From the NCBI GenBank assembly GCA_902521315.1, contig CABYRH010000003.1:62001-126000 (forward strand): DNA of 64,000 nt, given 5' to 3'. Shown here in pieces: positions 31,830 to 39,207 of the stretch. Source of the DNA: an uncultured Alphaproteobacteria bacterium (GTDB taxonomy: Bacteria; Pseudomonadota; Alphaproteobacteria; HIMB59; GCA-002718135). Every line of letters starts with the position of its first letter. Position 1 is the first letter of the stretch. The notes beneath the pieces were generated by a model. The model searched no databases and was not told the DNA's origin. It was given only the letters and a program-made list of their open reading frames with translations. A program made the position numbers and the translations under genes.

Positions 31830-32624
31830 ATGGAAATAAATAAAATTATGAATTTATTGAATCTGGAGCATGTTAAGTTTTTAATATCTATCTTTAAAGA
31901 AAATAATATTGAAATTCGATTAGTAGGAGGATGTATACGAGATGCTCTTCTTGAAAGAGAAATCAAAGATATTGATACAGCAACAACTTTGGAGCCTCAG
32001 GATGTTTTGTCATTACTAAAAGATAACAATATTGAATATGATGATTTTGCTATTCAATATGGATCTATAATTGCTTATCCTCATAATCGAAAAATACAAA
32101 TTACAACTTTACGTGAAGATATTAATCAAATGGGAAGACATACAAATGTAATTTACACCAACAGCTGGAAAAAAGATTCAGCCAGAAGAGATTTTACTTT
32201 CAATGCTTTATATGTCGGAAACAATAATAAACTACATGATTATTACAATGGCCAATCAGATTTAAATGAAAGTAAAATTCGTTTTATTGGTGAAATAGAG
32301 GATAGAATAAAAGAAGATTACTTAAGAATCTATCGATACTTTAGATTTAGAGGTTTATTTAATTTGCCTAAAACATCTTTAAGTGATCAAAAAATTGTAG
32401 AAAAATATATTCACGAATCTTTAGCAGTGTTGACCAACGATGTAATAAGGCAAGAAATATTAAAAATGTTTAATATGTCTTTTCCATTAAATTGTTTTTA
32501 CATATCTCATCAAACGTTACAAAAATTTAAATGGGTTGAAATAGTCCAAGAGCATTTCATACGAACAAAATATGATCTTGGATTAAATAAATGTCTGAAT
32601 AAGATTGATAATTTAATAAATTAG
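31830..32624 (+). CDS. CCA tRNA nucleotidyltransferase / poly(A) polymerase family, short form
   Basis: RLVGGCIRDALLEREIKDIDTAT, RRDFTFNAL, RIYRYFRF; only 264 aa. Confidence 0.87.
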   Translation: MEINKIMNLLNLEHVKFLISIFKENNIEIRLVGGCIRDALLEREIKDIDTATTLEPQDVLSLLKDNNIEYDDFAIQYGSIIAYPHNRKIQITTLREDINQMGRHTNVIYTNSWKKDSARRDFTFNALYVGNNNKLHDYYNGQSDLNESKIRFIGEIEDRIKEDYLRIYRYFRFRGLFNLPKTSLSDQKIVEKYIHESLAVLTNDVIRQEILKMFNMSFPLNCFYISHQTLQKFKWVEIVQEHFIRTKYDLGLNKCLNKIDNLIN

Positions 32625-33025
32625 TTTTTTAGTTTACAATTTTCGCACAAACCAAATATTTCTAAATTATGTTTTTTATAATTGAAGTTATTTTTTTCTG
32701 CTTGTTTTGAAAAATAAGAAAACAAATTATTTCCAGTTAGCTCAGTAACACTATCACAGTTTTCACATATCAAAAAAGATGTAGAAGTTTTTGCATTACA
32801 GCCTTCATGCTTACAAGCAACATATGAATTTCTACTTTCTATTTTATGTACTTTGCCAATTTCTATAAGCTTATCTAAAGCTCTATAAACTTGAAGAGGA
32901 GATTTAATTCCTTTTTTTTGAATATCAAAAAGGATTGTATATGCTTTAAGAGGTTCTGATGAGTTTTCTAAAATATCAAGAACTGTTTTCTGGTTTTTGG
33001 TTAAATTTTCTGATGCTAATGCCAT
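32621..33025 (-). CDS. zur: Fur-family transcriptional regulator, probable Zur
   Basis: Fur-like winged helix, CKHEGC and CENC Cys motifs, next to znuBC; ATG at 33025 preferred over upstream TTG. Confidence 0.85.
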   Translation of the reverse strand: MALASENLTKNQKTVLDILENSSEPLKAYTILFDIQKKGIKSPLQVYRALDKLIEIGKVHKIESRNSYVACKHEGCNAKTSTSFLICENCDSVTELTGNNLFSYFSKQAEKNNFNYKKHNLEIFGLCENCKLKN

Positions 33026-33047
33026 AATTTTAATTAACAAATAGTTT

Positions 33048-33851
33048 TCATTTTTGCAACTGACCCTTTATCTCCAGAGGAATAAGTGAAATAATAAATA
33101 ATAATAATGCAACTACAATTATAGAAGGCCCTGAAGAAGTATTAATCTCAAGCGAAACAAACAATCCAGCAATTACAGATACGACACCAGCTAAAGTTGC
33201 AATTATAACCATTTGACGAGGACTGCTGCTAATATTTCTTGCAATTGCTGCAGGTATTAAAAGTAAACCAGTTATCAATAAAGCGCCAATCATTTTAATA
33301 GATAAAGCAATTACTCCTGCCAATAAGAGTGTGAATATAAAATTAGAAACTTCTGGTCGCATTCCTTCTGCTGCTGACAAATCATAATTTACCGTTGCTG
33401 AAAATAAAGATTTCCAAATAAAGTACAAAATCAATAATATTGTAGTACCACCTAAATAAACTATAGTTATATCTTCTACATCAACTGCAAGTATGTCTCC
33501 AAATAATAAACCCATAAGGTCAAATCTAATTGATGTAAGAAACCCAATTAATACCAAACCTATAGCAAGTGTAGAGTGAGCAAGTAGACCGAGTAATGAG
33601 TCTCCTGCGAGTTTTGTTCTTTTTTGTAAATTAATTAATAGTAAAGCAACAACAGCTGAAATTATAAAAACTGAAAATGTAATATTAAAGCTAAAAGAAT
33701 AAGCTAAAGTTACACCCAATAATGCCGAGTGAGACAGCGTATCTCCAAAATAAGATAACCTTCTCCAAATTACAAGACATCCGAGAGGTCCGGCAATTAT
33801 TGCAATACCAATGCCAGCTATGAGAGCTCTAGTAAAAAAATCATCAAACAT
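33048..33851 (-). CDS. znuB: Zinc ABC transporter permease
   Basis: ABC-3 family GCLVIWRRLSYFGDTLSHSALLGV; operon context. Confidence 0.9.
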   Translation of the reverse strand: MFDDFFTRALIAGIGIAIIAGPLGCLVIWRRLSYFGDTLSHSALLGVTLAYSFSFNITFSVFIISAVVALLLINLQKRTKLAGDSLLGLLAHSTLAIGLVLIGFLTSIRFDLMGLLFGDILAVDVEDITIVYLGGTTILLILYFIWKSLFSATVNYDLSAAEGMRPEVSNFIFTLLLAGVIALSIKMIGALLITGLLLIPAAIARNISSSPRQMVIIATLAGVVSVIAGLFVSLEINTSSGPSIIVVALLLFIISLIPLEIKGQLQK

Positions 33852-34593
33852 TATTTGTTACTCTCCCATCTGTTCCATGAGAATGATCATGATCATGTTG
33901 ATAAAGTGATAGAGTTGTGGCGTTATGTTCACCAAATAATTCTATGTATGCCGAATTCTTTACAATTGATCTTGGCGTTCCAGAGCAACATATATGACCA
34001 TTTAAGCAAATTACATGATCTGTAGCTGACATAACAAAATGAAGATCATGTGATATCAGTAATATTCCACAATTAAGTGTTGAACAAATTTTTTTAATAA
34101 GATTATAAAGTGCAATTTCTCCATTAAAATCTACACCTTGAACTGGTTCATCCAAAACAAGTAATTCTGGTTTTTTTGCGATTGCTCTTGCGATTAAGAC
34201 TCTTTGAAATTCTCCGCCAGATAAATTATGAATATCGTTATAGAGAAGGTTATCTACTCCAGTTAATTTTAAAGCATCAACAATTTCAAGATTATTTATA
34301 TGACTTGTTAATTTCATAAAATCAACGACACGAAGAGGCATTGTCCAATCAATATTAATTTTTTGTGGTACGTAAGCCATTTTAGAAGCAAAGTTTTTTA
34401 TTTGCCCTTCATCAGACTTAAGTATCTTAAGTATCATTTTAGCTGAAGTTGTTTTTCCAGAACCATTAGGCCCTATTAGAGTAACAATTTTCCCCTTGTG
34501 AATTTCCAAGCTTATTCCTCGTACAATCCACTTGGATGACTTGTACACACCACAGTTATCTAGTTTAACCAATAAATTATTATTTTCTGCCAT
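33844..34593 (-). CDS. znuC: Zinc ABC transporter ATP-binding protein
   Basis: GPNGSGKTT, LSGGEFQRVLIARA; His-rich C-terminus HDHDHSHG. Confidence 0.92.
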   Translation of the reverse strand: MAENNNLLVKLDNCGVYKSSKWIVRGISLEIHKGKIVTLIGPNGSGKTTSAKMILKILKSDEGQIKNFASKMAYVPQKINIDWTMPLRVVDFMKLTSHINNLEIVDALKLTGVDNLLYNDIHNLSGGEFQRVLIARAIAKKPELLVLDEPVQGVDFNGEIALYNLIKKICSTLNCGILLISHDLHFVMSATDHVICLNGHICCSGTPRSIVKNSAYIELFGEHNATTLSLYQHDHDHSHGTDGRVTNNV

Positions 34594-34612
34594 TTTATTA
34601 TTTACAACTTAA

Positions 34613-34631
34613 AATGTTATATTATAACATT
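34613..34631. promoter_or_regulatory. Zur box (bidirectional operator for znuC and znuA)
   Basis: AATGTTATATTATAACATT, perfect 9-bp half-sites around one central base; matches the well-known TGTTATAnTATAACA Zur consensus. Confidence 0.88.
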
Positions 34632-34671
34632 ACAATACTTTAACACACTTAAATCTAATAGGAATACTTTT

Positions 34672-35862
34672 ATGAAACAAATGAATATTTTTCTACATGT
34701 TTTTAAAATTATCTTGTTTTCAGGAATTCTTGTTGCAACTGCATCTGCTAGAGCAGAACTAAAAGTTGTAACGACTATTAAACCACTTCATTCATTGATT
34801 GCTAATGTTATGAATGGAATTGGTGAACCTGGACTTATAATTGAAGGAAGCATATCTCCACATAGTTTTACTATGAAACCATCTCATGCAAAAATGCTTG
34901 AAGAAGCAGATATAGTATTTTGGATTGGTGAGAGTATTGAGACATCATTAGAAGAACCTCTGGAGTCAATAGCAAAAAGTGCTGAAGTCATAGAGTTTAT
35001 GGAAGTTGAAACAATTGCTAAATTAAAATTTAGAGAAGAATCTATATTTGGTGACCACGACGACCATGACGATCACGATGATCATGACGATCATGACGAT
35101 CATGATGACCACGATGATCATGACGATCACGACGACCATGACGACCATGACGACCATGACGATCATGATGACCACGATGATCATGATGACCACGATGATC
35201 ATGACGATCACGACGACCATGACGATCATGATGATCATGACGAACATAACGATCACGACGACCATGACGATCATGATGATCATGACGAACATTACGATCA
35301 CGATGATCATGACGATCACGACGATCACAGTGGACACGACCACCACGGTCATGCACATGGTGAATTTGATGCTCACATTTGGTTAGATCCAATGAATGCT
35401 AAAGAAATGGTTCATGAGATTGCTCATGAGTTAGGTGATTTAGATCCTGCCAATAAAGAGAAATATGAAGCAAATGCTGATGCAACAATCAAAGCTTTAG
35501 AGCAATTAATAAATGACGTTAGCAAGGATATTAATTCCGATGCAAAATTTGTCGTTTTCCATGACGCCTACCAATACTTTGAAGAAAGATTTGGTGTAAG
35601 AGCTGCAGGAGCTTTAACATTGAATACTGATGTTTTACCTGGTGCAAAGCAAATAGCTGATATTCAGGATGTTATTAAGGATAAGGGAATAAAATGTATT
35701 TTCTCTGAACCTCAATTTAATCCAAAGATTATTACAACAATAGCTGAGGATATGAATATCAAAACAGGAGTTTTTGATCCTTTAGGTGCTAACATCGATG
35801 CTGGTAAGTCACTTTACTTTACTTTGATTAGTAATCTCGGGGACGAGCTTAAAGGTTGTTAA
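34672..35862 (+). CDS. znuA: Zinc ABC transporter substrate-binding protein with very long Asp/His repeat
   Basis: Signal peptide, VVTTIKPLHSLIANVM, metal-loop (DDH)n, AHIWLDPMNAKEMV. Confidence 0.93.
   Translation: MKQMNIFLHVFKIILFSGILVATASARAELKVVTTIKPLHSLIANVMNGIGEPGLIIEGSISPHSFTMKPSHAKMLEEADIVFWIGESIETSLEEPLESIAKSAEVIEFMEVETIAKLKFREESIFGDHDDHDDHDDHDDHDDHDDHDDHDDHDDHDDHDDHDDHDDHDDHDDHDDHDDHDDHDDHDDHDEHNDHDDHDDHDDHDEHYDHDDHDDHDDHSGHDHHGHAHGEFDAHIWLDPMNAKEMVHEIAHELGDLDPANKEKYEANADATIKALEQLINDVSKDINSDAKFVVFHDAYQYFEERFGVRAAGALTLNTDVLPGAKQIADIQDVIKDKGIKCIFSEPQFNPKIITTIAEDMNIKTGVFDPLGANIDAGKSLYFTLISNLGDELKGC
35053..35328 (+). repeat. 9-bp (GAY-GAY-CAY) coding tandem repeat in znuA
   Basis: About 30 Asp-Asp-His units; higher-order 45-bp units at 35206-35250 and 35251-35295 differ by one base. 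Confidence 0.95.
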
Positions 35863-35876
35863 TTTTTAATATTTAA

Positions 35877-35909
35877 ATAAATTCCACCTTGTATAAAGGT
35901 GGAATTTAT
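35877..35909. terminator. Strong hairpin between znuA and COG0523 GTPase (terminator/attenuator/processing site)
   Basis: ATAAATTCCACCTT-GTATA-AAGGTGGAATTTAT, perfect 14-bp stem, 5-nt loop; no long T-tract. Confidence 0.6.
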
Positions 35910-35933
35910 AGAACTAATTATAAGGAAATTGAT

Positions 35934-36905
35934 ATGGAAAATACTTCTCAGGTTCCAGTTACGGTTTTAACAGGTTTTCTTGGAGCTGGAAAAACAACAC
36001 TTTTAAATCGAATTTTAACTGAACAGCATGGACGTAAATACGCTGTCATTGTTAATGAATTTGGTGAGCAGGGAATTGATAATGACCTTGTTGTTGATGC
36101 TGATGAAGAAGTATTTGAAATGAATAACGGTTGCATTTGTTGCACTGTTAGAGGTGATTTAATTAGAATTCTTAGTGGTTTAATGAAACGTGCTGACAAA
36201 CTAGATGCAATTATAGTTGAAACAACTGGTTTAGCCGATCCAGCCCCAGTTGCTCAGACATTTTTTGTTGATCAAGACGTTGCTGATAGAACAAAATTAG
36301 ATGCAATTGTTACAGTTGCGGATGCTGTTCATCTAAGTTCTCAACTAGTAGATCATCATGAAGCAGAAGAGCAAATTGCTTTTGCTGATGTAATTTTGTT
36401 AAATAAAGTTGAACTTGTTGAAGATAATGACATTGTGAAAGTTAATGATCGTATTAGAAAAATAAATCCTTTTGCAAAGATTATTAAAACAACACGTTGT
36501 GATGCACCTCTTGATGAAATCGTAGGCTTAAATGCATTTAGTCTAGATAGAGTATTAGATATTGAACCTGACTTTCTTGAATCAGATCATGATCATGAAC
36601 ATGATGATGATGTTACTAGTCTATCTTTTGTATCTGATACACCATTAGATATGGATAAGTTTCAAGATTGGTTTGGAAATTTACTTAGGACTAAGGGCCA
36701 GGATATTCTTCGATCAAAAGGCATTTTGAACTTTAAAGGTGAAGAAGAGCGATATGTATTTCAAGGAGTGCATATGCTTATGGATGCTTCACCAATGGGA
36801 CCTTGGCCTAAAGGAAAAGATAGAAGTTCTCGAGTAGTATTTATTGGTCGTGATCTTGATAATATGAATCTTAAGGAAGGCTTTGAAAATTGTAAATCAG
36901 CATGA
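35934..36905 (+). CDS. COG0523/CobW-family GTP-binding metallochaperone (zinc-associated)
   Basis: [25 protein letters not shown] (CXCC), HDHEHDDD; start revised from TTG 35889 (inside hairpin) to ATG 35934 with AAGGAAA upstream. Confidence 0.92.
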
Positions 36906-37939
36906 ACGCTGATTTAGAAAAACTTCAAGAATCAAATAAAACTGAACTTGAAAGAAGAGGTTCAATTTTTAATATTGGAGCTCCAGCTACAGAAGCGGTT
37001 ACAATTCGTGATCAAATAGCGGTAGGATTTGGAGACGGCACTGTAAGATTTTTTCAATCTGGATCTGATCCTAAAACTGTTAAAGCACATAAGGGTGTAG
37101 TGTTGAGTATGACAAATTATGAAGATCATGTGTTAACGGGAGGAGACGATGGACGTTTTCTAAAAATATCATCTGATGGAAATATTGATGAAATTTTTAA
37201 TTTTGGTTCAAAGTGGGTTGACTGTGTAGTTTCTCACAAAGATACTAAAGTTTGTTCATCAGGAAAGACTGTTTATATTTGGAGAAAAAACAAAGATAAA
37301 CCTGAAATTTTAGAGCATCAAAGTACTGTTGCTGGATTAGCATTTGATAATAAAGGTAAGCGTCTTGCGGTCTCAAGATACGGTGGAGTAACAGTGTGGA
37401 AACTTAATAATAATAAATGGACAGCATCAAATTTTACCTGGAAAGGATCGCATGGAACTGTAACGTTTAGCCCAGATACAAAATATATTGTAACTGCAAT
37501 GCAAGAAAATCAAATTCATGGTTGGCGCATAAACGACAAAGCGGATTTAGCAATGAGAGGTTATCCATCAAAAATTAAAAGTTTTACTTGGGTTGGTGAT
37601 ACACCGTATTTGGTAACATCTGGATCCAGTGATGCAGTTTGCTGGCCATTTGATGGTAAAGAAGGACCAATGGGGAGAAAGCCAATTGTTGTTGCAAACG
37701 GTGGTAAAGAACTTGCAACATTTGTTAAAGCACTTAATGGAGAAAAAGCTGTTTTCACCGGTTTTACAGATGGGTCAGTTTTATTAGCAGAAATTGATGA
37801 AAGCAAAAAACCAATTATGATTAGAAGTTCAACAGGTTCAGAAGTTTCAACAATAGCTATATCTAGTGATAACTCACAAATATTAATTGGCGATATGAAA
37901 GGTTCTATTCTTTTATCATCTTTATGGGCAGACAATTAA
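36902..37939 (+). CDS. WD40-repeat beta-propeller protein
   Basis: Repeated GDGTVRFFQ / [11 protein letters not shown] / DGSVLLAEI blades; overlaps GTPase stop. Confidence 0.8.
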
Positions 37940-37949
37940 AGGAGAAAAT

Positions 37950-38204
37950 ATGTTTAATCGTAAAACTCAAAATGTTGAAAAAATAAGAAATCTTAAACAT
38001 TTAATTTCCAAGAAATATAAATTACCAGAAAATACTATAATAAGTATTGCTGAGCTCAGTTGTCATGAACCTGATTGTCCACCAATTGAAACTGTAATTA
38101 CTGCAAGAAATGAAGACGGATCAATGAAAAATTGGCGAGTTGCAAAATCAATAGAAGAAATAGAGGAGTCAGATATTAATAATCTAACAAATCACACTCA
38201 TTAA
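37950..38204 (+). CDS. Small conserved-looking protein with CHEPDCPP motif
   Basis: 84 aa, IAELSCHEPDCPPIETVITARNEDG; ribosome-binding site AGGAGAAA; co-directional with zinc operon. Confidence 0.7.
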   Translation: MFNRKTQNVEKIRNLKHLISKKYKLPENTIISIAELSCHEPDCPPIETVITARNEDGSMKNWRVAKSIEEIEESDINNLTNHTH

Positions 38205-38227
38205 ATTATTAAATTTAAAATAATTTA
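38202..38227. terminator. Possible AT-only bidirectional hairpin
   Basis: TAAATTATT-AAATTTAA-AATAATTTA between convergent ORFs; all A/T so weak. Confidence 0.25.
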
Positions 38228-38311
38228 TTAACAGCAATCTCCACCTTCACAAGTACAGCAACAGCTACAACTGCAACCACACTTTGGTGGGTTTGGATTT
38301 TGATTTTTCAT
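38228..38311 (-). CDS. 27-aa cysteine-rich metallothionein-like micropeptide (candidate)
   Basis: Reverse complement ATG...TAA: MKNQNPNPPKCGCSCSCCCTCEGGDCC*; 9 Cys of 27; AGG 7 nt upstream of ATG; below ORF-track cutoff. Confidence 0.65.
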   Translation of the reverse strand: MKNQNPNPPKCGCSCSCCCTCEGGDCC

Positions 38312-38349
38312 AATCATACCTATATATTTTATAATAATTTAAAATACAA

Positions 38350-39207
38350 ATGAGAAAAGCATTAGAAATTAAACAATGTATGAAGACTTTCGAGGGTGAC
38401 GGGATACCTGTAACGAGAGCTTTCCCTGTCCCCGGAATGAGAGAAAATGATCCATTTCTTCTTTTTGATCATTTCGGCCCAATTAATTATGAGCCAGGAG
38501 GTGCAACTGGTGTACCAGCACATCCTCATTGTGGATTTGAGGCAATTACTTACATGCTTGGTGGTGAAGTAGAACACAGAGACTCATTTGGAGGACAAGC
38601 AGAAATTGAAACTGGTGATGTACAATGGATGACAACTGGATCAGGTTTAATTCACTCTGAATTAGTAACAGAAAAATTCAAGAAGAGTGGTGGTATTATG
38701 CAAGGATTACAAATTTGGGTAAACCTTCCTCAAAAAAATAAAAAAGTTAAACCTTGGTATCAACATATTAAAAGAAACACTATTCCAAGAGTATCTGAAA
38801 ATGCAAATATAGAAATTAAAGTTCTTGTGGGTGAAATAAATGGAACCAAATCCAAAGTTCAAACATATTCACCTGTATCAATATTTGATATTCAATTTTC
38901 AAAACCAGATATGACAAAGTTTAATGTTGATAAAGAACAAAATCTTATGATCTATATTATCGATGGTCAATTACAATTTAACGAGGAAGATAAAATCGCT
39001 AATAAAGGTGATATGATTTACTTTGATCAGTCAAGTGATGAGATTCAACTTACATCGATATCAGAAAAAGGATCCTACCTAGTTTTAGCAGGCAAGCCGC
39101 TTAAAGAACCTGTAGCACGTTATGGTCCTTTTGTGGCAAATTCTGAAGGAGAAATCAAGCAAGCAATGATGGACTATCAAGAAGGAAAGATGGGAAGCTT
39201 AGCTTAA
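38350..39207 (+). CDS. Pirin family protein
   Basis: FLLFDHFGPINYEPG, GVPAHPHCGFEAITYMLGGEVEHRDSFG. Confidence 0.9.
   Translation: MRKALEIKQCMKTFEGDGIPVTRAFPVPGMRENDPFLLFDHFGPINYEPGGATGVPAHPHCGFEAITYMLGGEVEHRDSFGGQAEIETGDVQWMTTGSGLIHSELVTEKFKKSGGIMQGLQIWVNLPQKNKKVKPWYQHIKRNTIPRVSENANIEIKVLVGEINGTKSKVQTYSPVSIFDIQFSKPDMTKFNVDKEQNLMIYIIDGQLQFNEEDKIANKGDMIYFDQSSDEIQLTSISEKGSYLVLAGKPLKEPVARYGPFVANSEGEIKQAMMDYQEGKMGSLA

Follow-up and report, generated by a model that had tools for sequence, protein, structure and literature searches.

A conserved 27-residue, nine-cysteine peptide encoded at the edge of a zinc cassette in open-ocean Alphaproteobacteria: a possible micro-metallothionein

Background

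Bacterial metallothioneins are described as having histidine ligands and a zinc-finger fold of the GATA type (PMC10612145). In the marine cyanobacterium Synechococcus WH8102, zinc uptake by ZnuABC is combined with storage of the metal by a metallothionein, both under the control of Zur (PMC9337993). Still smaller proteins of this kind occur in fungi, where Cu-thioneins of 26 residues with seven cysteines were once considered to be the shortest metallothioneins (PMC4755600). Larger metallothioneins contain clusters that involve a comparable number of thiolates. The nine cysteines of the mammalian β-domain form a Zn3Cys9 cluster (PMC10243857), and in the metallothionein of Yarrowia lipolytica eight to nine cysteines, including a CCC run, form a Cu4 cluster, Cu4Cys8-9 (PMC13107397).

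Gene clusters in which COG0523 subfamily 5 and WD40 proteins are associated with znuABC have already been described as a type, and a zinc cassette of this type is the neighbor of the gene reported here; the passages on these clusters in that description (PMC2770081) do not mention a Cys-rich peptide. The cassette was found in the window, the whole stretch of 64,000 nucleotides from an uncultured alphaproteobacterium that was analyzed. One edge is a Zur/Fur-family regulator (32621..33040, minus strand), with pcnB next to it, followed by the ZnuB permease (33048..33851, minus) and the ZnuC ATPase (33844..34593, minus), both assigned from sequence and operon position. Transcribed in the opposite direction are the zinc-binding protein ZnuA (34672..35862, plus), a COG0523/CobW GTPase with cobW and CobW_C domains (35934..36905, plus), a WD40 β-propeller protein (36902..37939, plus) and an 84-residue CHEPxC protein (37950..38204, plus), the 3' end of the cassette in the window. 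The Asp/His repeat of ZnuA is very long (DDHDDH...) and the length of the protein varied from about 340 to 530 residues among relatives. The CHEPxC protein had no match in Pfam or NCBIfam, although 53 genomes of the genus gave matches to it, 26 of them with 100% identity. An AT-only gap of 23 bp (38205..38227), in which a scan found no intrinsic terminator, separates its stop codon from the convergent stop codon of the peptide gene. Pirin (38350..39207, plus), the flank of the cassette site, begins 38 bp from the start of the peptide gene in the divergent direction.

Results

The original prediction placed a minus-strand ORF of 27 residues with nine cysteines at this position, and both its coordinates (38228..38311, minus, stop codon included) and its sequence (MKNQNPNPPKCGCSCSCCCTCEGGDCC) were exactly as described. 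Its orientation, convergent to the CHEPxC gene and divergent from pirin, was likewise verified. Nine of the 27 residues are Cys (positions 11, 13, 15, 17, 18, 19, 21, 26 and 27), with the spacing CxCxCxCCCxCx4CC, which places nine thiolates within 17 residues. The N-terminus is free of Cys and rich in Pro and Asn, the window's own peptide has no aromatic residue, and His was absent from every intact sequence variant. No signal peptide or leader segment was seen in the peptide by inspection.

The ORF can be read in two ways on the minus strand, as 29 residues (38317-38228) or, from the MKNQ start, as 27 residues (38311-38228). The in-frame upstream ATG that had been suggested as an alternative is present, as an ATG-ATT extension (38312..38317, minus), but was ruled out as the start because it is not conserved; the same site in relatives reads GTATG, GTATA, GTATC or GTGAA. 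The MKNQ start, in contrast, was kept in relatives, with GTG in one variant form, so that MKNQ is taken as the real start and the product would have 27 residues. The predicted AGG, 7 nt 5' of the MKNQ ATG (38319..38321, minus), was also present; this Shine-Dalgarno-like element is kept (ATATAGGT) in relatives in which the gene, as in the window, adjoins pirin (pirin-type). The gene is 84 nt long with its stop codon, shorter than the usual lower limit of gene callers, 90 nt, which may account for the missing family model.

Judged by its pattern of substitutions, the ORF is a genuine protein-coding gene. The pN/pS ratio, a check of the dN/dS type that had been proposed with the prediction, was 0.066 for 38 distinct coding sequences of the genus and 0.074 for 13 of the order's second family, about 0.07 in both, indicating constraint at the protein level. 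Nonsynonymous changes accounted for 17 of the 38 distinct changes in the genus; random placement gave a mean of 26 and as few as 17 in 3 of 10,000 trials. In the Cys codons of the genus nine changes occurred, every one a synonymous T/C exchange at position 3. Identity per column was 0.99 at the first, 0.98 at the second and 0.86 at the third codon position, compared with 0.80 upstream and 0.72 downstream of the gene. Non-Cys residues, two Pro, Gly, Thr and Ser, were conserved as well, and the same Ser residues were written AGY in one family and TCN in the other, a difference of two base changes each, from which it follows that selection preserved the protein and not the DNA. Loss of the ORF, frameshifts and non-conserved cysteines in relatives had been named in advance as evidence against the gene; the ORF passed this check, with the exception of frameshifts in two copies (L033 and L034), replacement of Cys11 by Phe in one (L107) and a few clean absences. 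The two frameshifts and the Cys11 replacement may be errors of single-cell amplification.

A protein search detected the peptide in 75 of the 102 genus genomes, the majority of which are incomplete. The number expected from their completeness, if the gene were universal, is 75.6 +/- 4.3, and the peptide is thus near-universal in the genus. Two genus genomes, G061 and G094, represent clean absences, in which znuA lies beside murJ and there is no trace of the peptide in the znuA-murJ intergenic regions (L251 840-1109, L252 1973-2199); apparently the gene was lost there. Within the family but outside this genus, nine genomes from six genera did not yield the peptide; genus g5 has the same zinc cassette without it. 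A diverged form, for example MDNNKPKPDCGCSCSCCCTCGDGCCQ, is carried by 36 of 52 genomes of the order's second family, with all nine Cys kept and nearly the same spacing. A protein search of 395 genomes of the class returned only weak matches, and those inspected were without a similar peptide. When the Cys pattern was searched for in the 395 class and 399 phylum genomes, none of the matches listed from outside the order resembled the peptide, most of them being microsatellite-like TGC/TGT sequence. No homologue was found in viral contigs, plasmids or phages.

The gene order in the genus was examined in 72 sequence-distinct loci, some of which may share a genome. The cassette can be written as znuABC-zur(-cobW-WD40-CHEPxC-DUF1636), and the peptide gene was its outer edge in every locus seen. 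In all 72 loci the 3' neighbor of the peptide gene was the znuA-led cassette, whose end gene next to the peptide gene was znuA in 22, CHEPxC in 32 and DUF1636 in 18. The 5' neighbor was pirin in 58 loci and murJ in 13, and the remaining locus, on a short contig (L035), looks rearranged. The cassette itself is modular, because the DUF1636 gene lies between CHEPxC and the peptide gene in 18 of the 72 loci (L003, L036, L043, L046 and others) and cobW-WD40-CHEPxC is missing in 22. Two alternative cassette sites were seen in one genus (32621-38311 in the window; L277-L280, L284 and L285). Pirin-type genomes have the cassette, with zur at one end and the peptide gene at the other, between pcnB and pirin. 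In the four murJ-type genomes examined, pirin directly adjoined pcnB, leaving an empty site, and the cassette with the peptide gene lay beside murJ, so the cassette and the peptide gene moved as a unit. The pcnB-pirin site and the murJ site were ~120 kb apart on one contig in the murJ-type genome G015, and in two pirin-type genomes examined murJ was located elsewhere with other neighbors. The peptide gene is therefore part of the cassette, whereas the flanking genes are tied to the sites.

The neighborhood in the second family was different. The peptide gene was found between a methyltransferase gene or c24 and a TM52/proteasome-like/CP-ATP-grasp run (loci L095-L106, L132 and L133), and znuA or znuABC was located elsewhere. 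Beside the peptide gene was a conserved run of genes for a circularly permuted ATP-grasp protein (CP-ATP-grasp), a proteasome-like protein, a 52-residue membrane protein, a methyltransferase and two 60-residue membrane proteins. Of the 16 second-family genomes without the peptide, 14 were also without the proteasome-like gene. G122 has the proteasome-like neighborhood and no peptide, while in G127, which has the proteasome-like gene, the peptide was not found and the contig ends too early.

No Zur box was found within 150 bp upstream of the peptide genes, where the best candidates mostly had at least four mismatches and one had three. The sole exact copy in the window of the Zur-box-like palindrome, TGTTATATTATAACA, is in the divergent promoter between znuC and znuA (34615..34629). 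Control of the peptide by Zur through a nearby box was rejected on this ground. A scan for sigma-70 promoters gave none on the minus strand and as many plus-strand sites as expected by chance, and a scan for terminators matched none. The proposed link to the zinc locus was borne out in the genus by co-relocation, and more strongly than could be seen from the single sequence, but did not extend to the second family with its other neighborhood or to a Zur box.

Discussion

The peptide had no match in Pfam up to E = 1, in NCBIfam up to E = 0.1, or by phmmer against all PDB chains up to E = 10, the latter a search of low power for 27 residues, and no description of it was found in the literature. 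It resembles SmtA, BmtA and PflQ2 MT in being a small cytosolic Cys-rich chain with about nine Cys, but it is approximately half as long, has no His and no Pfam match, and no Zur box was found at its gene. A chain of 27 residues would leave no room for the GATA-type zinc-finger fold. With no model or PDB match, no His and too short a chain for the fold, the peptide would not belong to the SmtA/BmtA family. Nevertheless, it has the sequence features of a metallothionein in the broad sense: it is short, about 30% Cys and without aromatic residues, contains conserved CxC and CC motifs, and its Cys residues are conserved across two families. The Cu-thioneins of Neurospora crassa and Agaricus bisporus (Family 8) are of similar length, with 26 residues, and likewise have enough Cys for one cluster (PMC4755600). 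They differ in having seven Cys compared with nine here, they are eukaryotic, and no sequence relation has been shown. Nine Cys in about 30 residues are also found in the mammalian β-domain, enough for an M3S9 cluster (PMC10243857). That domain is part of a two-domain protein, and homology is not claimed. The mammalian β-domain is not known to contain a CCC motif. Like the peptide, the fungal-IV metallothionein of Y. lipolytica contains a CCC motif and starts with a segment that lacks Cys (PMC13107397), but it is longer, eukaryotic and binds Cu(I); here too, homology is not claimed.

The peptide probably serves to hold metal and would then be a micro-metallothionein, a protein of this class of very small size. 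We consider it reasonably likely that it serves as a cytosolic thiolate metal buffer of 27 residues, a minimal metallothionein, most likely for zinc. The peptide would be made from a short transcript of its own, with the zinc cassette on the other strand, and its nine thiolates (CxCxCxCCCxCx4CC) would wrap around a single metal-thiolate cluster of ~3 Zn(II) or 4-6 Cu(I), with the Cys-free Pro/Asn N-terminus as a tail. In the genus, ZnuABC would import zinc, the COG0523 GTPase would allocate it and the peptide would buffer or store it, a pairing analogous to that in marine Synechococcus, where BmtA complements ZnuABC and is functionally paired with it and with Zur (PMC9337993). Against a strict zinc role are the lack of a Zur box, the non-zinc neighborhood in the second family and the clean absences in a few genomes.

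The main rival to the zinc reading is a Cu(I) or soft-metal thionein that sequesters Cu(I) or Cd(II), the zinc cassette being a mere genomic companion. The peptide, unlike the known zinc-binding bacterial metallothioneins, has no His ligands, which leaves room for Cu(I); the fungal metallothioneins of similar size (26 residues, 7 Cys) are Cu-thioneins (PMC4755600), a CCC motif takes part in the Cu4Cys8-9 cluster (PMC13107397), and the second-family gene is not beside zinc genes. However, every genus locus keeps the peptide with znuABC-zur even after relocation and its observed neighbors include no copper gene, so this reading is judged unlikely. The high Cys content and the lack of a zinc neighborhood in the second family would also suit a redox or thiol-reservoir peptide, or an exported disulfide-rich one, that is not primarily metal-binding. 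Export is at odds with a sequence that has no signal or leader segment, and adjacent CCC with CxC spacing, as a matter of established chemistry, would be more in keeping with a thiolate cluster than with defined disulfides, which makes this explanation decidedly improbable. The earlier suggestion of a short Cys-rich modified peptide, the precursor of a ribosomally made and post-translationally modified product, draws on the short ORF with its Cys-free N-terminus and on the ATP-grasp, proteasome-like and methyltransferase genes nearby in the second family. It did not stand up in the genus, where none of those genes and no other maturation gene adjoins the peptide gene in the 72 loci, the neighbors being zinc uptake genes, pirin or murJ; for the second family an adjoining maturation enzyme is uncertain. 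In the genome from which the window comes, nothing matched the proteasome-like protein, and the Cys residues of the peptide hardly vary, either in themselves or in spacing. We give the precursor reading very little weight.

Poly-Cys short ORFs that act as Cys-responsive attenuators are known in mycobacteria, and in such a leader peptide translation matters whereas the product does not. Here, however, neither family has a co-directional gene after the ORF, the downstream gene being convergent in all 72 loci of the genus and in 14 of the second family, and the conservation of the non-Cys residues is likewise hard to reconcile with a leader; the attenuator reading is accordingly disfavored as highly improbable. 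Finally, a length of 27 residues, below the usual gene-calling limit, might be expected of a chance ORF, or the conserved element might be non-coding. The codon-pattern constraint in two families and the AGY/TCN exchange at serine argue otherwise, and in 40 dinucleotide shuffles of the window the highest Cys count in 27 residues was 8 and typically 5, never reaching the 9 of the actual window, so that this explanation has practically no probability left.

Conclusions

As a tentative proposal, which we judge slightly less likely than not, the peptide would represent a new micro-metallothionein family whose members are smaller than any others in bacteria and occur in a single order of open-ocean Alphaproteobacteria. 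In one genus it would be encoded by the terminal gene of a relocating zinc cassette and would provide a zinc store for very small zinc quotas. The example shows that almost every genome of a genus can have a gene that lies below the usual 90-nt calling limit and is missing from family databases. The peptide is accessible by chemical synthesis, so the claim of metal binding is directly testable. If it binds metal, it would set a new lower size bound for bacterial metallothioneins, would be a parallel to the ZnuABC-plus-BmtA system of marine Synechococcus achieved by an unrelated peptide, and would point to a possible means of storing or buffering scarce zinc in an uncultured ocean lineage.
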